A stretch of 25,559 nt of DNA from a virus, in IMG/VR virus record IMGVR_UViG_3300025137_000260, positions 1 to 25,559 of that record; one strand, written 5' to 3'. A program made the position numbers and the translations under genes. Positions within the stretch are counted from its first letter, which is position 1. Every line of letters starts with the position of its first letter. The notes under the pieces are model-generated. The model was not told the DNA's origin, searched no databases, and was given only the letters and a program-made list of their open reading frames with translations. Below are positions 5,250-15,745 of this stretch, piece after piece.

Positions 5250-6113
5250 TTAATATCCTCCAGGTGTGTTAGATGATCCGTTATAAATATCTGCAGATGG
5301 GGGGTTAATTGGGGGTGAGGATTGGTTTTGTGGATTGTTTACTTCTGTAGATGGGGGTGAGATATTAACAGGAGTTAATGCTTGATGGAAATAAGGTACA
5401 TGTCTTCTTCCTACCATAGGGCCCTTATCAGGATGAATATGATAAAGTCCTACATAATCCTTCCCATTAGGTAATAAAAATTCTCCTCCAGGTGTATATA
5501 AACTATAAAGTTGAATATAGTTATTTTTTAAATAAGAACTTAATCCTATATAATTTTTATTTGATTCCTTATTAAAAACTGTGCTTTTATTTTCCAGTGC
5601 AACTTTTTCTTTATTTCCAGAAATAACCCAAGTTAAAATAAAAGGGTTGTAAAGATCAAAAGATATAGTTTTATCTTTATTTTTTAACTTTAGATATTCT
5701 TCTACTGAAATTTCAATAAAAATCGGTTCATTAATTTTTTTACAGAAATATCTATTAAATTCTCTAATTTTATAATCTTCTAATGATGGAGAAGGGGGGA
5801 TGTGTCTAGGAATGCTAGGGGCTATCATTTTAGTAATATCCTTTAAACGTAGATAATCTAAAGTTCGTAATGTAAAATTATAGTAAGGTTTTTCTTCGGG
5901 TTCAGGTTCAAATTTAGCTACATTAGAAGCAGCATTTTCGGAATATTTTATAAGCTCAATTATACTATCTATACTGTTAGGAGATTTACCTGCAAAATAT
6001 TTTCCAGTTGAAGTAGACCAATAAAAACCAACATAAGGCACCCCCGTAGTAAGGATAGTAAGTTCTCCATTACTATATAAATTGGTTTCTATTTGGGATT
6101 TTGGAAAATACAT
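5250..6113 (-). CDS. Virion-associated protein with YHIHP motif, 287 aa
   Basis: No secure function. ATG at 6113 is chosen because it overlaps the hub stop codon as TGATG; the alternative TTG at 6116 adds one residue. The N-terminal segment contains PYVGFYWSTSTGKYFAGKSP, and a related segment near residues 217-245 reads DYVGLYHIHPDKGPMVGRRH followed by VPYFHQAL, so the protein seems to hold two versions of one small Y-x-G-x-Y...G...G motif. The C-terminal 40 residues are rich in Pro, Asn and Ser and look flexible. Similar histidine-bearing motifs occur in structural proteins of marine T4-like phages (memory only). The position between the hub and the fibers fits a baseplate or fiber-attachment protein. 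Histidine-based metal binding is conceivable but unproven. Confidence 0.65.
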   Translation of the reverse strand: MYFPKSQIETNLYSNGELTILTTGVPYVGFYWSTSTGKYFAGKSPNSIDSIIELIKYSENAASNVAKFEPEPEEKPYYNFTLRTLDYLRLKDITKMIAPSIPRHIPPSPSLEDYKIREFNRYFCKKINEPIFIEISVEEYLKLKNKDKTISFDLYNPFILTWVISGNKEKVALENKSTVFNKESNKNYIGLSSYLKNNYIQLYSLYTPGGEFLLPNGKDYVGLYHIHPDKGPMVGRRHVPYFHQALTPVNISPPSTEVNNPQNQSSPPINPPSADIYNGSSNTPGGY

Positions 6114-9100
6114 CAAGTGCTTGGATATGTAGAAGCATCAGGACCTGGTCCAGGATAGAATGCAAATTTCATGTCTTTAATTTCAAATGCCGTTACGTCT
6201 CTTTGACGTTTACCTTGTTCTTTTGCTATTCTGGCATATTCTGCCTTACCTTGTGTTTTGCTAAATTTAATTCCAAAGTGTAAAGGATCATATCTGTTAA
6301 AAGTTGCTCCCCAACTAGAAAGTTTAGCGGCACTTGCAACATCTACTATTCCAGTTTCTACCCATTCTTGAGGAGAGTTAGTGTTATTTCTAAGTTGTTT
6401 ACCAGTACCTAAATCAAAAAGAGTAATATCAAATGCCATTCCAAATTGGTGTGGGGAAGTTCCAGGCTTTGCTGCTACTTTTGGAGCAGTTTTAGTAACT
6501 TCTTCTTGTTGAGGAATAGTTCTTATTGTAGAATTTATTGAAACTTTTAATCCTTGCATGCGGGGTTCAACTAAAAGCCCATTTAAAAAGTCTAATGCAT
6601 AAGGTTTAAACTGAGTGTTTATGTACTTAACTACTTCATTAGGAGATGTTCTAGCAAATGGTTTAATACCAAAACTGTCTCTTGTAGTATAAGCATCACC
6701 CCACCATATCTCTGTAGGGAGGGATGGGTTACTAGCTATAGTAGTTACTTCTGAGGATGGATTATTATTTTTTCGTGTTGGGGGAGATAATTCTTGTCCT
6801 TTTATGATGTCCGAAAAATCTTGGAGTTCTACTGATTGTTCAGAGGGCCAAGATAGAGTATTAAGGGTAGTGGTCCATTTATTATCTCTTAAATCATGAG
6901 TTACTCCTTGGATTATAAAATTTACATTATTAGGATACGATTGGGGGAGAATATAATCGGGACCTATGTCGAATTTTTCATATAATTTAAACCCAGATAA
7001 ACCTTTTATAGTTAAAGATAATTCTACGGGAATGAAAAAAGGAGAAGTTATTTGTCCTTTAGTAGCTCTGTATTGTATGTCATAAGATAAAATATCTTTT
7101 AAAGCCGTAGTAAAATCTTCAATTACGCTTTCTTCGGGTAATCTATAACCATTATAACATTGAGCAAAATGCTCTTTTACTTTTATAATTTCTTCTATAT
7201 AAAATTCAAATGGGGTTTGTTCATTAGTTTTATTAAAGGGTTTAGCTCCTTTAGATACTCTATCTCTTAATCCTTTATTTAATCTTTGATATGAAGATAC
7301 TTGTTCACCTGCTGTAGTTTCTGGGTTTTGGGCTGCAATTGCTACTGCATTTTGTAATGATGGGAAGATTTTACTTGTAAAACTTAAATTTTCTACAAAA
7401 CTACCTACTCCTGTACTTGATCCTAATCCTTTTCCTAAATTAGCTAGTAAATCTGTACTATTTTTTAATTCCCCATTTGTTATTCCATAAACATGGAATT
7501 TTCCAACTGAATTACGTTTTGGAGTTACTCCAGGGATGCTTGTGTCGTCTTTTATGTTTAAAGTGTTAGTGTCTTCATCATAAGATACATTAAATGAGTT
7601 TATATTACCTGTGACTCTAGATACTCCGGTTAAAATATTTTGAAGTAAAGGACCTAAAGGAACTACACCATCATCTGTTTTAGTACTATTAACTTGGGAA
7701 ACAATATAATCCATATTAACCATTATTCCCATCATGTCTCCTTTAAAAGGATTATCCGTTTCAAAAAAATTAAGAGGGTCACCTACCAGTTTTATTGGAA
7801 AACTATCAGCACCTATAATATCTCCTATTTTAGGAGAAGCACTAGTTAACATACAAATCTTGGGGTCAACTGAATTTTGGAAAGGATGACGAAGCATAAA
7901 AGTAGTTTCATAATCTGTTTCTATATCAATAATAGGGTCACCATTATCATTATAAAACAATCCTTGCTCTTTTATAAATCTTAAAAAACATCCTAAAGAA
8001 ATATAATATTGGCTAGTGAATCCACTTTTAGTAGAGCTTGTACTCATTTCATATCTTAAAAGTTCACCATCTAGTAATAATTTAAGACCGTATACGCTTT
8101 CAACACTTAAACCCGGAAATATATTTCCCTCTTCATCTTCACTAGGGTCTCTATCATATATTGAAGAAGGAGAAAAACTAAAAGGTCCAATACGGGAAAG
8201 GCCTGCGTCATCATTATCAGATTTTAACGTTTGTTTCCAATTTTCTAAATACGCTACTAAAATAGTAGCTTTACTTGTTTCATTTCCTGATTCATCTTTG
8301 GGTACCGACTTAGAATTTACAACATGGTTTGTTTTTAAAGAATCTATAAGACCTCCTCTAGTTATTACATTTAAGGTAGCTTTGTAAGTACCATCTGCAC
8401 CAAAAGTCCAATTAAAATTACTAATATATCCAATAAAACCATCATAATTATAATTTGATAAATTCCTTTCTTCTATAAGTTGTTTAGTAACAGTAGAAAA
8501 AACATTACTATCTCCACCTTCCATAAAGGTTGAAAAAGGTAAAGTAGAAAAATCTGATCTTTGTTGTAAATTACCTTGGTTATTATAATATATAGTGTGA
8601 CCCCACTCTACTAGAATAGTAAATCCTAATCTTAAATAAAGAGCTTCAATTAATCTAAATTGGTCTGGGTTGTGGGCTACTAGACTAATATTTGCTTTTC
8701 TTATAGCTCCTCTATTTAAAGCTGTAATAGACATGTTTTCAACTGCAGGGGGAGGTGTGTAACCCCATTTGTTTATGTTACCCCCCCAACCATAGTTATA
8801 GTAAGTTGAACTATCAAGACTACTTCCTTCAGCAAATCCAAAAGCACCGAATCTGCCTAGAGGATCTTCATCACGGCCCGCCGGACCAAAAAGTACTGCG
8901 TTTTTGGCAAATCTATTTCCTCCTCCAACTGCAGAAAAATCATCTAATCCCGCTAATTGGGTATCTTCTACATCAACACTAGATGCTACTCTTAACCAAG
9001 AAGTATTGCTATTATTATATATAATATCATTATGATCTAAGACAGGTTTTCCTAACTTTGATTGTCTTATGTCAATTTGGTTAATAAGATCTTGATCAAG

Positions 9101-9121
9101 ATTTTCTCCAATAATACCCAT
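6113..9121 (-). CDS. Baseplate hub protein with C-terminal M15 peptidoglycan peptidase, 1002 aa
   Basis: The N-terminal two thirds resemble hub proteins of marine contractile phages, with LYLRLGFTILVEWGHTIYY near residue 160 and, near 680-770, a region ending FIIQGVTHDLRDNKWTTTL like gp27/gpD-type hub domains. From about residue 775 a zinc peptidase domain follows. SPHQFGMAFD supplies H891 and D898, and YDPLHFG supplies D945 and H948. This matches the His-x6-Asp ... Asp-x2-His pattern of M15 L-alanyl-D-glutamate or D-Ala-D-Ala peptidases such as Ply500, where three residues bind zinc and the second Asp is catalytic. Role (inference): the puncturing tip degrades cell-wall peptide crosslinks during entry. 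The start overlaps the LysM gene stop as TAATG. The exact bond cleaved cannot be read from the sequence. Confidence 0.85.
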   Translation of the reverse strand: MGIIGENLDQDLINQIDIRQSKLGKPVLDHNDIIYNNSNTSWLRVASSVDVEDTQLAGLDDFSAVGGGNRFAKNAVLFGPAGRDEDPLGRFGAFGFAEGSSLDSSTYYNYGWGGNINKWGYTPPPAVENMSITALNRGAIRKANISLVAHNPDQFRLIEALYLRLGFTILVEWGHTIYYNNQGNLQQRSDFSTLPFSTFMEGGDSNVFSTVTKQLIEERNLSNYNYDGFIGYISNFNWTFGADGTYKATLNVITRGGLIDSLKTNHVVNSKSVPKDESGNETSKATILVAYLENWKQTLKSDNDDAGLSRIGPFSFSPSSIYDRDPSEDEEGNIFPGLSVESVYGLKLLLDGELLRYEMSTSSTKSGFTSQYYISLGCFLRFIKEQGLFYNDNGDPIIDIETDYETTFMLRHPFQNSVDPKICMLTSASPKIGDIIGADSFPIKLVGDPLNFFETDNPFKGDMMGIMVNMDYIVSQVNSTKTDDGVVPLGPLLQNILTGVSRVTGNINSFNVSYDEDTNTLNIKDDTSIPGVTPKRNSVGKFHVYGITNGELKNSTDLLANLGKGLGSSTGVGSFVENLSFTSKIFPSLQNAVAIAAQNPETTAGEQVSSYQRLNKGLRDRVSKGAKPFNKTNEQTPFEFYIEEIIKVKEHFAQCYNGYRLPEESVIEDFTTALKDILSYDIQYRATKGQITSPFFIPVELSLTIKGLSGFKLYEKFDIGPDYILPQSYPNNVNFIIQGVTHDLRDNKWTTTLNTLSWPSEQSVELQDFSDIIKGQELSPPTRKNNNPSSEVTTIASNPSLPTEIWWGDAYTTRDSFGIKPFARTSPNEVVKYINTQFKPYALDFLNGLLVEPRMQGLKVSINSTIRTIPQQEEVTKTAPKVAAKPGTSPHQFGMAFDITLFDLGTGKQLRNNTNSPQEWVETGIVDVASAAKLSSWGATFNRYDPLHFGIKFSKTQGKAEYARIAKEQGKRQRDVTAFEIKDMKFAFYPGPGPDASTYPST

Positions 9122-9429
9122 TAAGAATTTAGTTTATTAAATAGATTAATAGCTAATCCTGTGTTACGAGGAATACGTAATTGGGTTCCTAAAGGAATAT
9201 TTAATGAGTTTTGGGATAAATTCCCATTTGCTGAAGAAATAATCCACCATAAATTAGGGTCACTATAAAATTGTTGGGCTAATAAATCTAACCTATCACC
9301 TTTATTTGTTAAAACATATATATCGTTTTCTGATAGAGGGATTTTAGGGTAAAAAGAAGTTGAGTAAAATTTAGCTCCATTATTATCCTTGGGATTTTGT
9401 ATGGTTTTTATTCTAGAGTACCTACTCAT
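9121..9429 (-). CDS. LysM-domain baseplate wedge protein (gp53/gpX-like), 102 aa
   Basis: Residues 37-87 form a LysM-like domain: DIYVLTNKGDRLDLLAQQFY, then SDPNLWWIISSAN, ending PLGTQLRIP. The GDRLDLLA, LWW and LRIP signatures are those of small tail proteins such as P2 gpX and the LysM part of T4 gp53, which build the baseplate around the hub. In phage tails the domain serves assembly rather than cell-wall binding. The start lies 2 nt after the 598-aa gene stop, and the stop overlaps the hub ATG (TAATG), so the three are translationally coupled. Class membership is firm; equivalence to gp53 specifically is inference. Confidence 0.85.
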   Translation of the reverse strand: MSRYSRIKTIQNPKDNNGAKFYSTSFYPKIPLSENDIYVLTNKGDRLDLLAQQFYSDPNLWWIISSANGNLSQNSLNIPLGTQLRIPRNTGLAINLFNKLNS

Positions 9430-11466: not shown

Positions 11467-14115
11467 TTATTGAGTCTTATATGAAGTCATTCCTAAAGCC
11501 GTACCTACTTTATTACCATCCATCATTACAACACTACCCTGTTCTACAGCGTTTACTAAGCGTTCTAATAATTTAACAGCCTCTCCATCACCACCTCCGC
11601 CAAATGGACTTGTAGCACCTATAATAATGTCATCTTTGCGGAATTTTTGGACTGGTTGGCCTGGTCTTGATATAAAGTCTGCTGCTTCATCCCCACCAAA
11701 TAGATCTACTGCTGTTTTACCTACAGATGAAACATCTACATTATCTGCAATTGTTCCCGCTACCCATCTACCTAAAGCATCACCTGCAATACCACCTAAG
11801 AATGTACCTATACCAGGGACAGGAATTAATGATCCTAAAATACCTCCTACTATACCACCTCCTAAACCTCCTACAGCTTGGAGTGACTTTTTACCTACTT
11901 CCTGATAATCTATAGTTCCATCTAATGTGCCTGCTGCTGCATTTTTTACTTCCATACCCGCTATAATAGCTGAAATAGCTGTTCCTAGAATAGGAATCTT
12001 TTTTAAAAGTTTACCTACACCACCTCCTTTAAAGAAACCTTTAATAGCATTCATAGGGTTTAATGATTTAACTCCTGAAACTACTGAACCTGCAAGTTTG
12101 GATACTCCTCCCAATAAACCTTTTCCTGCACCTTTTATCATACCCATTAATCCACCACCTCCAGCTTTTGCTGCACCTCCTGCAACTGTTGAAGCTGTTC
12201 CTGTAACTGCTTTAACGGCATCATCCGCAGCTCCCCCCATTTTACTTAACCCTCCTGTTATTTTTGAAATAGTATTACTGATTGTTTTGAAGGGATTCAT
12301 TAATGCTTTTACACCATCTAATAATTTTCCACCAGTTAGTATACTTCCAAACTTTGCAGCCATGATTGAAATTTGCTCAATGTTACCCATTATAAAATCA
12401 AATATGCTATGGATAGTATCTAAGATAGGAATCATTTTAGCAAATACATCACTCATTTGCTCCATTACTTGCTCTTGCTTTTCTTGGAGAGTAAGGTTTC
12501 TTTGCTGTTGTACTAATTCTTCAGCTCCTTTTGTTTTCTTTAATTCTTCTAATGCTAATTTTCTTTCATCAGCATCTTCAATTTTATTAATTTGCTCTAA
12601 CCTTTGCTTAATAGCATCATTCATACTATCAGCATTAATCCCTTCCATTTTATTTAAATTAGCTAGTGCTGACTTTTTAACAAACATATCTGCCATAGAT
12701 TCACGAGTCATACCCATTGCTTTAGCAATGCCCTCTTGCTCGATTCTATTCATATCCGCAAACTTTGCTTGAGTAATACCTTGTTTTTGAAGTTCTTTAC
12801 CAAGTCCCACTAAATCTCCATCTAAAGCAAATTGTCTTGCTTTTTCTAAGTTAAGGTCCTGGCCCAATAATAATTCAGCTTCTAACTCATTAGCAATAGA
12901 TTGTTCGAAGTCTAGTAATCCTCCAGCAATGTTATCTAATTCACCCATACTTAAACCCATTTTTTTAGCTTGGAATGCTGCTTCTGCTAAATTTTGTCCT
13001 TGGGCTTTGGTTGATAATTTAACAGCATTAGATACATTACTTACATCTTTTAAAATAGCTTTATAGTCTATTGCTGTGTCGTTCTGTGCATTTAAGACTT
13101 TAACAGTACCTATAGCTTCTTCAGTAAATTCAGTAGTGTTTTGACCCGCAGCTAAAGTAAATTCTGCTAATTTTGAAGCTTCAGCTCCACTTACCCCTAA
13201 TCGTTTAGTAAGAGTATTAAATGTAGTTAAGGTTTGAGCAGAAAGCATAGAAGTTGTACCTAATGCTTGGTTAACTTCCGTTAAAGATTCAGCAAGATTA
13301 CTAGCTGTAACTCCATTTATACTAGAGGCAGCTGTAACTAATTGGTTATTTAGTTTAAGTCCCTCTTTTCGGGACATTCCTAAATTACGACTTAAATTAA
13401 CGGATCTTTCATCCGCACTTTTTAAACCTTTTACTAAAGCACCTATAAAGGCAGCAGATGCTGCTTTTGCTAAATCACCTGCTATTTCTTTAGAAGAAGC
13501 TGCAAGTGCTTCACCTGAATCGTTTGATTCAGCTAATTTTGAATTAAAAGTATCAGCCGCTCCCGCCATTCCCGAAAATACTTTTCCTAAAACTGGGATG
13601 TCTTGAGTTACATCGGATAATCCTTTAAATGGATTAGCCTTTTCCATTTTATCCGTAGTTTCAGAAATTTTTTCAAATTCTCCTCTTACGGCCTTTGCCG
13701 CATCTTCTTGTTCTTGGAGGGCTACTAATACTTCAACTAAAGCATCAGCTTCTTTTTCGGCCTCTTCTCCTCCTTCTGCAATTAATAAATTTAATAATTC
13801 TGAAAGATTATTAATTTTTGCTTGTCGAGCAGCCTGCTCTGCATCTAACTTAATAAGTTGCTTTTTAAACTTTTGGTTTTTATCTAATCCCTTTAGCTGG
13901 TCTTTAGTTAAGTTTTGTAGTTCTTTGGCTAAGTTTTTAGCAGTTGAACCAGACGCCAGAAATCCTTCTGCTGTGTCTCCTGTTAATTTAGCCGCTGATT
14001 TAGCTGCATCTCTAAGTTGTTTATCTACACCTAGTAAAGTCCTGCCTAGGATTTCAGCTTCCTCATTAACTTTTTTAAGGTTTGCTGCGTTTAAATTAGG
14101 ATCAAATTCTGCCAT
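11467..14115 (-). CDS. Tail tape measure protein, 882 aa
   Basis: Sets tail length and is injected with or ahead of the DNA. Residues 1-160 are Ala/Lys/Glu/Leu-rich helix and coiled coil (ELQNLTKDQLKGLDKNQK). The middle has long alpha-helical repeats. From about 560 hydrophobic and glycine-rich segments appear, including GGGIVGGILGSLIPVPGIG, suited to membrane insertion. The C terminus has DDIIIGATSPFGG, LLERLVNAVEQG and VMMDGNKVGTALG, a tail end typical of phage tape measures. It lies right after the chaperone gene, as usual. By the rough rule of 1.5 angstrom per residue the tail would be about 130 nm, a loose estimate. The ATG at 14115 lies only 4 nt after the putative promoter element and has no Shine-Dalgarno sequence. 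Confidence 0.9.
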   Translation of the reverse strand: MAEFDPNLNAANLKKVNEEAEILGRTLLGVDKQLRDAAKSAAKLTGDTAEGFLASGSTAKNLAKELQNLTKDQLKGLDKNQKFKKQLIKLDAEQAARQAKINNLSELLNLLIAEGGEEAEKEADALVEVLVALQEQEDAAKAVRGEFEKISETTDKMEKANPFKGLSDVTQDIPVLGKVFSGMAGAADTFNSKLAESNDSGEALAASSKEIAGDLAKAASAAFIGALVKGLKSADERSVNLSRNLGMSRKEGLKLNNQLVTAASSINGVTASNLAESLTEVNQALGTTSMLSAQTLTTFNTLTKRLGVSGAEASKLAEFTLAAGQNTTEFTEEAIGTVKVLNAQNDTAIDYKAILKDVSNVSNAVKLSTKAQGQNLAEAAFQAKKMGLSMGELDNIAGGLLDFEQSIANELEAELLLGQDLNLEKARQFALDGDLVGLGKELQKQGITQAKFADMNRIEQEGIAKAMGMTRESMADMFVKKSALANLNKMEGINADSMNDAIKQRLEQINKIEDADERKLALEELKKTKGAEELVQQQRNLTLQEKQEQVMEQMSDVFAKMIPILDTIHSIFDFIMGNIEQISIMAAKFGSILTGGKLLDGVKALMNPFKTISNTISKITGGLSKMGGAADDAVKAVTGTASTVAGGAAKAGGGGLMGMIKGAGKGLLGGVSKLAGSVVSGVKSLNPMNAIKGFFKGGGVGKLLKKIPILGTAISAIIAGMEVKNAAAGTLDGTIDYQEVGKKSLQAVGGLGGGIVGGILGSLIPVPGIGTFLGGIAGDALGRWVAGTIADNVDVSSVGKTAVDLFGGDEAADFISRPGQPVQKFRKDDIIIGATSPFGGGGDGEAVKLLERLVNAVEQGSVVMMDGNKVGTALGMTSYKTQ

Positions 14116-14131: not shown

Positions 14132-14158
14132 AGAAAAAAAGCGTCATTTCTTTGACGC
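14132..14158 (-). terminator. Rho-independent terminator between chaperone and tape measure genes
   Basis: In the sense strand the stem GCGTCA / TGACGC with a 6-nt loop is followed by a run of seven T. The stop codon TGA of the frameshifted chaperone product lies inside the hairpin (14144-14146). The opposite strand also has a short T run, so weak bidirectional action is possible. Confidence 0.8.
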
Positions 14159-14447
14159 CTTTTTCATAGTAGAAGTATATGTAGGTACTTTAGGTTTTGA
14201 TTTTTGTTTAGCTTCATCACGAGCTGATCCTTTCAACCAGCTTTTTTCTGCTTGTTCTTTAGATTTATTATTTTTATCCTCGTAATGTTGTTTTATTTTT
14301 TGGAAAGTAAATTTTCTTAACCATGTAGGCATTGAATAAACATCATGCCAAGAATAACCTCCGTTGCCGTGAAATACAATTTCATGTATTTGGGTAAATA
14401 AATTCGCCCTAATTAGGGTTGCGGCATCAGAGGTCAGGCCAAAAAAA
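14144..14447 (-). CDS. Frameshift-encoded C-terminal extension of the tail assembly chaperone
   Basis: From the T run the alternative frame reads FGLTSDAATLIRANLFTQIH, then EIVFHGNGGYSWHDVYSMPT, WLRKFTFQKIKQHYEDKN and a Lys/Ser-rich end (TMKKASKK). Only the last 62 codons have their own ATG (14332), in the middle of the conserved-looking WHDVYSMPTWLRKF stretch, so independent initiation would cut the domain. Relative to zero frame (AGC TTT TTT TGG) the shift is +1 or -2, giving a fusion of about 340 or 341 residues. A palindrome CCCTAATTAGGG lies about 22 nt downstream and might stimulate slippage. The alternative is a homopolymer length error in the assembly, which would make this one continuous gene. 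Confidence 0.72.
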
Positions 14448-15167
14448 GCTCAAGCCAATTGGAAGTGATACTATTTCTTCATCACCCTCATCATTAAATA
14501 CTATAACATCCATATCTACGTCTGGGTTTATGGTTTTATAGTATTTTCTAAACTCACGGATGTCTTTAGCTAAGAAATAGTTAGAAGTAAATTCTTTAAT
14601 GTCCTTAGCTTCAGTAGAACCATTTATTGAGGTAATAGTTCTATAAAGTCTTACTGTTACATCATTAGAAGCTGTTTTACTTATTTTTTTAAGACTTTTT
14701 AATTCAGCATCAATTTTTCTTTCATCATGCCCTGTAAGGAATTTAAAGGTAACTTCATTTTTAGTGTGGGGTAACGTGTAAGAAAATTCATTTTCACCCC
14801 TTTTATATAAACTTTCGTCTATAGGTAAATTTTCTAAAACAGATAAATCAATTTCTTGACCTACTCCATTGTATGTAACGTCATACTTTGCTCCATACGC
14901 CAAAATACGTGCCGCTATCATAATAGCGTTTTTATCACCCGTTAGTAAATCATTATAATCAAATTTAGTTACAATCAGTGATTGAAGGAGTCGATCAATC
15001 ACGGATCCATTTTTAATATAATTTTGATTAGTAAGGATGTCTTCTTCTTTAGCAGTCATGTATTTTATTTCGACTTTTCCTTCTGCTAAAGGGTGACCTT
15101 CGGGGTATAATAAGCCTTTGGAAGGCAATTCTATAACTTCTGTTGGTAGATTAAATTTATCACTCAT
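14427..15167 (-). CDS. Tail assembly chaperone / baseplate hub-assembly protein (gp26-like), zero-frame product, 246 aa
   Basis: The N terminus (FNLPTEVIELPSKGLLYPEG, then KVEIKYMTAKEEDILT) matches the T4-like baseplate/hub assembly family usually called gp26 (or gp51) in marine T4-like phages. The rest is a mixed alpha/beta protein without catalytic motifs. It sits between tail tube and tape measure, the classic place of tail assembly chaperones (lambda G/GT, P2 E/E'). The zero frame ends LSFFWPDL just after a run of seven T (14447-14441), while another frame stays open on both sides of the stop and continues to 14144. The short protein is therefore probably one of two products. The family call is good; the chaperone role and the frameshift are inference from position and sequence. 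Confidence 0.8.
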   Translation of the reverse strand: MSDKFNLPTEVIELPSKGLLYPEGHPLAEGKVEIKYMTAKEEDILTNQNYIKNGSVIDRLLQSLIVTKFDYNDLLTGDKNAIMIAARILAYGAKYDVTYNGVGQEIDLSVLENLPIDESLYKRGENEFSYTLPHTKNEVTFKFLTGHDERKIDAELKSLKKISKTASNDVTVRLYRTITSINGSTEAKDIKEFTSNYFLAKDIREFRKYYKTINPDVDMDVIVFNDEGDEEIVSLPIGLSFFWPDL

Positions 15168-15256: not shown

Positions 15257-15745
15257 TTAGAAATTCAACACGCAGTAGTCCATATCTATTGTAAGGGTTA
15301 AATTGGTTGGGGTATCTACTGAATCATAATCGTAGTCTCCAAAGTTGGCTTCAGTAATTATGGCTCCTTTAATTACCCACTCACTTACTACATCACCTAC
15401 AGGTCCTACTATGTCAAGAGTTAAATCTTTTTTATAGAAGTCAGAGTAACCATCTCTACCCGTTACTGATTCGTGACCTAAACGTACCCATTCCATTGCA
15501 GCTTGCGCTCCAGAAGGAGTAATTGGATCATAAAGAGTTAAAGTAATTGGGTTCCAAGTTGTTTTACCTTTAATTTTACGATATACGTTTATGTAATTAA
15601 GAGTAATTGCGTTTTGGGTAAGTGAAATTGCGCTTACACCCTTCACCATGTAGCTGGGGAAACCATCCACATACAGTATGAACCTATTTGCTTGTTTGGG
15701 TTCAAATGCTGTGAAGAAAATTTCGTTTGAATCTAATACTGCCAT
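15257..15745 (-). CDS. gp19: Tail tube protein gp19
   Basis: At 162 aa it is almost the same length as T4 gp19 (163). It begins with a short leader then FEPKQANRFILYVDGFPSYM, followed by VKGVSAISLTQNAITLNYIN, TLTLYDPITPSGAQAAMEWV and a C-terminal beta segment ending LTIDMDYCVLNF. This is the usual tube fold order: an N-terminal strand with R-F-x-(L/V), a central PSGAQ...W helix and late strands. The protein forms the inner tail tube through which DNA passes. It lies directly after the sheath gene, as in T4, but is preceded by its own AATATTTAT element and followed by a strong terminator, so it is probably transcribed alone and abundantly. Confidence 0.93.
   Translation of the reverse strand: MAVLDSNEIFFTAFEPKQANRFILYVDGFPSYMVKGVSAISLTQNAITLNYINVYRKIKGKTTWNPITLTLYDPITPSGAQAAMEWVRLGHESVTGRDGYSDFYKKDLTLDIVGPVGDVVSEWVIKGAIITEANFGDYDYDSVDTPTNLTLTIDMDYCVLNF

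Follow-up and report, generated by a model that had tools for sequence, protein, structure and literature searches.

The gene between the tail tube and tape measure genes of this virus very probably encodes two proteins by way of a programmed +1 ribosomal frameshift: a short tail-assembly chaperone of about 246 aa, and a longer form of about 340 aa with an additional C-terminal domain. Such a pair would be of the G/GT type. Many aquatic phages related to T4 appear to do likewise. The case is made from the sequence of the window—the whole 25,559-nucleotide stretch of DNA analysed here (IMG/VR record IMGVR_UViG_3300025137_000260)—and from comparison with its homologues. In the mechanism that we propose, the majority of ribosomes would complete the zero frame and produce the 246-aa, gp26-like chaperone (the G form). 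Occasionally, peptidyl-tRNA-Phe on a UUU codon that precedes a pyrimidine would slip forward by one base, prior to decoding of the next zero-frame codon; in homologues with CUU UGG, tRNA-Leu may be the slipping tRNA instead. Translation in the +1 frame would then yield the ~340-aa protein with its C-terminal helical domain (the GT form). If the pair acts as lambda G/GT does, the short form would cover the tape-measure protein in many copies, and the long form, which is the rarer, would bring in tail-tube subunits. The two would be expected in a skewed ratio, and neither would be part of the virion.

The two overlapping frames and their neighbours

The features of the locus are collected in Table 1. 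The zero frame starts with the ATG at 15167 and ends AGC TTT TTT TGG CCT GAC CTC TGA, giving the C-terminus ...GLSFFWPDL. The +1 frame contains no stop from 14449 until the TGA at 14146-14144. If one T is skipped after the two TTT codons, and reading resumes at GGC (14440), the product is 242 + 98 = 340 aa. When the 305-nt region was shuffled, the given frame was stop-free in 3 of 20000 trials; this, together with conservation of the layout among homologues, makes it unlikely that the +1 frame is open by chance. The first-pass annotation of this DNA had proposed a frameshift layout at 14144-15167, with a zero frame that ends four codons past a seven-T run, a long product of about 340 aa and no ATG ahead of the downstream domain, and in all of this it was right. 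Indeed, neither ATG, GTG nor TTG was found in the window's +1 frame upstream of the extension domain. Its figure of 80-100 bp for the region after the zero-frame stop needs correction, the actual length being about 283 nt.

Table 1. Features of the chaperone locus, in window coordinates
Feature	Position	Strand	Basis
Tail tube protein gene, upstream neighbour	15257..15745	-	phrog_4542, E 5.3e-27
Zero-frame gene, 246-aa short tail-assembly chaperone (TAC-N / G-like), T4 gp26 family	14427..15167	-	PF12322, phrog_150, fold
Codon before shift site, AGC	14448..14450	-	
T7 shift site, AGC UUU UUU U|GG CCU GAC; contains UUU_Ynn, one U predicted to be skipped	14441..14447	-	
Zero-frame stop TGA, four codons past shift site	14427..14429	-	
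+1-frame extension (T-like domain), 98 aa + TGA stop, helical	14144..14440	-	
Tape measure protein gene, 28 nt downstream	11467..14115	-	phrog_167, E 1.9e-13

The 246-aa protein was thought from the outset to be gp26-like, and family, profile and fold comparisons agree. It matches PF12322 (T4_baseplate) over residues 29-242 at 25.4 bits (curated cut-off 24.5), and phrog_150 (baseplate hub) over residues 3-243 (E 6.6e-13). The short protein and the extension were folded as two separate AlphaFold models. The former (pLDDT 90.4) gave 49 matches with E <= 0.001 in a BFVD fold search, the best at 3.7e-18. Most of those that carry a name are baseplate hub or hub-assembly proteins of T4-like phages. 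In the corresponding PDB fold search, the HK97 tail assembly chaperone (2ob9) had the highest probability among the matches listed, although the match is weak (prob 0.28, E 2.2). Sequence searches of the PDB returned no matches for either the short protein or the extension; NCBIfam gave no usable match and the plasmid search no match, and the search of bacterial genomes matched two MAG contigs, one of them labelled Flavobacteriales. T4 gp26 and gp51 have zinc-ribbon cysteine pairs, which the family model does not require, whereas the window protein has no cysteines at all; cysteines are also present in one homologue, L083.

A role as chaperone was first suggested by gene order, and the location of the gene, with the tail tube on one side and the tape measure on the other, bears this out. 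Flavobacterium phage immuto has the same order (tube, chaperone gene, tape measure), and in Mel-JY01 the order is tube, gp26-like gene, then large ORFs. The nearest named relative infects Flavobacterium. Elsewhere in the window, a 1002-aa protein (6113-9121) weakly matches an endolysin family towards the C-terminal end (phrog_2649, E 3e-5). The 102-aa protein encoded at 9121-9429 has a match among baseplate wedge proteins (phrog_7145, E 8e-13). On the + strand, a 281-aa open frame (11927-12772) lies opposite the tape measure gene, whose composition probably produced it by chance.

Conservation of the two-frame layout

The best IMG/VR homologues, together with six further scans, provided 274 loci with a gp26-like gene, the window included. 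All of the best 80 IMG/VR homologues have the two-frame layout. The downstream domain was found at 259 of the 274 loci, and occupies the +1 frame at 257, the one remaining frame at two and the same frame at none. The first-pass annotation had looked to homologues for the decision: a shared two-frame layout on one side, and on the other both parts read in one frame with the slippery run missing. The outcome, 257 of 259 against none, falls on the side of the former.

The junction itself is conserved as well. An in-frame UUU_Y lies in the overlap at all 257 of the +1 loci, against 2.5% of 5-codon windows elsewhere in the gene. Codon-position constraint passes from the zero phase to the +1 phase past the shift site, and conservation in the +1 frame sets in with the first base beyond the slip codon (FFGLT).

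A sequencing or assembly error in a true gene with six T, and hence one frame, would be a natural suspicion for a homopolymer run in a metagenomic contig. It merits next to no credence here: the layout is shared by 257 loci from many samples, including the isolates immuto, Mel-JY01 and RM378, and many of the sites have no homopolymer (e.g. TTTCTTT and TTTCTATGG), such that the lineages with CTT and CTA refute it.

The domain might instead be a separate gene, reached by reinitiation or coupled translation near the stop codon of G, and never fused to it. An ATG occurs in the +1 frame somewhere upstream of the domain in 47 of 125 dereplicated homologues (38%), so that some of these, though not the window, may have a separate start, and at two loci, L261 and L266, the domain's ATG is just past the G stop. 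But ATG, GTG and TTG are all absent before the domain in the window and in 37 of the 125 homologues, and an independent start would need no constraint on the +1 frame from the base past the slip codon. The two exceptional loci themselves speak against separate genes as the general arrangement. They form one clade on the tree, they are the only loci without UUU_Y at the junction, and in both (L261:2640-2830 and L266:2640-2830) the extension is a separate ORF with its ATG beside the G stop. By sequence, this clade appears to be a natural loss of the frameshift, and is what such a loss should look like. For the family at large, then, we regard separate genes as improbable and favour the +1 shift.

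The putative shift site

The window's 15-mer, TTTTTTTGGCCTGAC, is the junction sequence at 134 loci, and TTTCTTTGGCCTGAC occurs 35 times; TTCTTTTGG and TTTCTATGG are also found. The seven-T run, whose conservation the first-pass annotation had asked about, is common but not universal: TTTCTTT takes its place at 36 loci, TTCTTTT at 14 and TTTCTA at four, and it is the in-frame UUU_Y that is kept throughout. On the tree, CTT requires six changes and CTA four, which indicates repeated substitutions that preserve the shift.

These variants also bear on how the frame is changed. Transcriptional slippage on the T7 run, a homopolymer, could give mRNAs with altered numbers of U. The variants show that no long homopolymer is needed, and the C before the run is constrained even where the run is three T; slippage of this kind is hardly credible. 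A -2 ribosomal frameshift, as in phage Mu, was offered at first alongside +1, and in a pure T7 run re-pairing on UUU after such a shift is feasible. At TTT CTT, TTC TTT and TTT CTA, however, the P-site tRNA cannot re-pair two bases back, whereas re-pairing one base forward is possible. We therefore retain the +1 half of the original proposal and drop the -2 half as very improbable. A canonical -1 site (X XXY YYZ, here U UUU UUU/UUC with the extension in the -1 frame) is ruled out by the C or G before the run and by the frame of the extension, which is +1.

Which codon slips may differ among the sites. At TTC TTT TGG, a +1 slip is possible solely on the second codon, and at TTT CTA TGG solely on the first (UUU to UUC). 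At TTT TTT TGG and TTT CTT TGG it is possible on either, and in the window's T7 site a slip on either codon would give the identical protein. After dereplication to 146 loci, UUU serves as slip codon in 117, CUU in 26, CUA in three and UUC in none, although 22% of the gene's other Phe codons are UUC. This silent-site argument is fully valid if it is the second codon that slips, and less so otherwise, since a slip on the first needs T as the third base of the second codon in order to encode the +1 Phe. Away from the junction, by contrast, UUU_Y is seemingly avoided in the G genes of the 146 loci: Phe is encoded by UUC before pyrimidines in 114 of 267 cases and before purines in 143 of 916, figures that are no more than suggestive, the loci being related.

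The codon that precedes the site is constrained, too. Its third base is C in 101 of the 104 pyrimidine-ending cases among the dereplicated homologues, compared with 16-55% by the same measure at the 13 codons that precede it. A change of this base would leave the zero-frame protein as it is, and in the +1 frame the base is not translated. Because the loci are related, counts such as these do not represent independent events. A C here might merely avoid longer homopolymers, but that explanation is weakened by the clade with TTTCTTT, in which the C is likewise fixed; across the CTT and CTA lineages, which have no long T run, it is present in 23 of 23. We infer that it either blocks backward slip or acts via the E-site codon; E-site effects are described in work cited in PMC5009743.

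Stimulators of the usual kinds were not detected: no conserved RNA structure was found around the shift site, and no Shine-Dalgarno-like sequence upstream, where silent positions -25 to -4 are unconserved (0.02-0.25 bits). Efficient frameshifting without a stimulator is unusual in bacteria. The motif itself, UUU_Ynn, is reported to be especially prone to +1 shifting in bacteria (PMC5009743). In Bacteroidota, Shine-Dalgarno pairing by the ribosome is rare (PMC8710568).

Related systems and the link to gp51

The best-known bacterial +1 shift, in prfB (RF2), is similar in that it takes place at a pyrimidine-rich site, CUU_U or, in a minority, UUU_U (PMC5009743). It differs in having a stop codon in the A site, where nearly all loci here have UGG, and an AGGGGG-like sequence three bases upstream, of which no conserved counterpart occurs here. 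One locus alone, L043, has TTT TTT TGA, so that its zero frame stops right at the shift site with UGA, as in RF2. Influenza PA-X (UCC_UUU_CGU; PMC5009743) likewise combines UUU with a pyrimidine and lacks an evident stimulator, although gene and host are unrelated; its UUU CGU recurs in the Streptococcus phage GXN1 homologue, as UUC UUU CGU.

In lambda, as here, the gene precedes that for the tape measure, the two products that are expected share their N-terminal part, and the C-terminal extension is in another frame. Lambda has another slippery sequence and shifts by -1 (Xu et al. 2004; review, PMC5009743), whereas the window's site points to +1, and the window's G has the T4 gp26 fold. Long-tailed phages are described as generally retaining the G/GT shift, T4 being the exception, with -1, -2 or +1 in use in different phages (PMC5009743). 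Homologues of the window's gene in other named phages have their own versions of the +1 layout: TTC TTT CGT with an open +1 extension in Streptococcus phage GXN1, TTT TTT TGG with a +1 extension in Rhodothermus phage RM378, and TTT TTT AGT with an open +1 extension in Listeria LIS04. Only among far relatives is the extension found in the -1 frame (L087, L088 and L272-L274, which comprise Agrobacterium phage Atu_ph07, L087, and huge-phage relatives; the huge phage LR756511 also has it in -1). In all these distant phages, +1 and -1 alike, the extension was called by open frame and position, with no profile match. In L087, L272-L274 and their kin, a T before the run creates U UUU UUC, a standard -1 site. 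The tail chaperones of Vandenendeviridae and Andersonviridae shift at a GTTTTT motif (PMC12846349), and so resemble the window's in that a poly-T shift site lies at the end of a myovirus's short chaperone; the difference is that their shift is -1.

In T4-like phages, the tail-assembly chaperones are gp26 and gp51, and some of these phages need no shift for theirs, having one short gene and one longer gene that is a fusion (Vladimirov, Gautam and Davidson 2022, Virology 566:9-15, as represented in the citing papers PMC10885494 and PMC12846349). T4 and the window's short form have the PF12322/phrog_150 family in common. In T4, however, genes 26 and 51 are separate—adjacent, and on opposite strands—with no frameshift, whereas the window would make both forms from one gene. 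The C-terminus of T4 gp26, ...EFFELL, apparently falls at the position of the window's FF shift site. T4 gp51 consists of a PF12322 protein with an extra C-terminus, as does the predicted frameshift product.

The extension has the motif GLT..YR..LF.QIHEIVFHGxGGY....VYNMPIWLR. Its model consists of three helices (pLDDT 78), and gave no matches in the fold search. Its commonest family match is phrog_634 (T4 gp51), which 10 of 37 members hit weakly (best E 0.0024). The next is phrog_32580 (tail assembly chaperone), also weak, with six of 37. In direct profile-profile comparisons with T4 gp51 and gp26, neither the extension nor the fused protein reached significance (E 0.24 by hhalign for the extension against gp51); shallow T4 alignments are the probable reason. 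A common origin of the extension and the gp51 C-terminus is thus a lead, suggested by these sequence matches, and not a proof. In the annotations of immuto, Mel-JY01 and RM378 (L081, L082 and L085), the extension is absent or appears as small hypothetical proteins.

We give about an even chance to a broader proposal: that a broad class of the T4 superfamily, at least some of whose members infect Bacteroidota, makes a gp26/gp51-type pair by a stimulator-free +1 shift for which UUU_Y (or CUU_U), with a codon ending in C before it and UGG after it, is sufficient; that +1 and -1 have flipped at the same junction; that T4 uses two genes; and that one lineage uses a separate start. No description of a conserved +1 site in the gp26 family was found in the open-licence literature, and the relevant terms are absent from the paper on Baltic Flavobacterium phages (PMC7077304).

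Published genomes miss the extension or annotate small hypothetical proteins in its place, a practical consequence. These loci also provide a set of natural +1 sites, of a kind hard to find by sequence, for the study of mechanism, and a test case for +1 shifting in Bacteroidota. The sequences point to a +1 shift in the T4 gp26 family itself, shared by hundreds of phages and conserved deeply; and T4 genes 26 and 51 look like one outcome among several—+1 shift, -1 shift, split gene and two genes—at a single junction.
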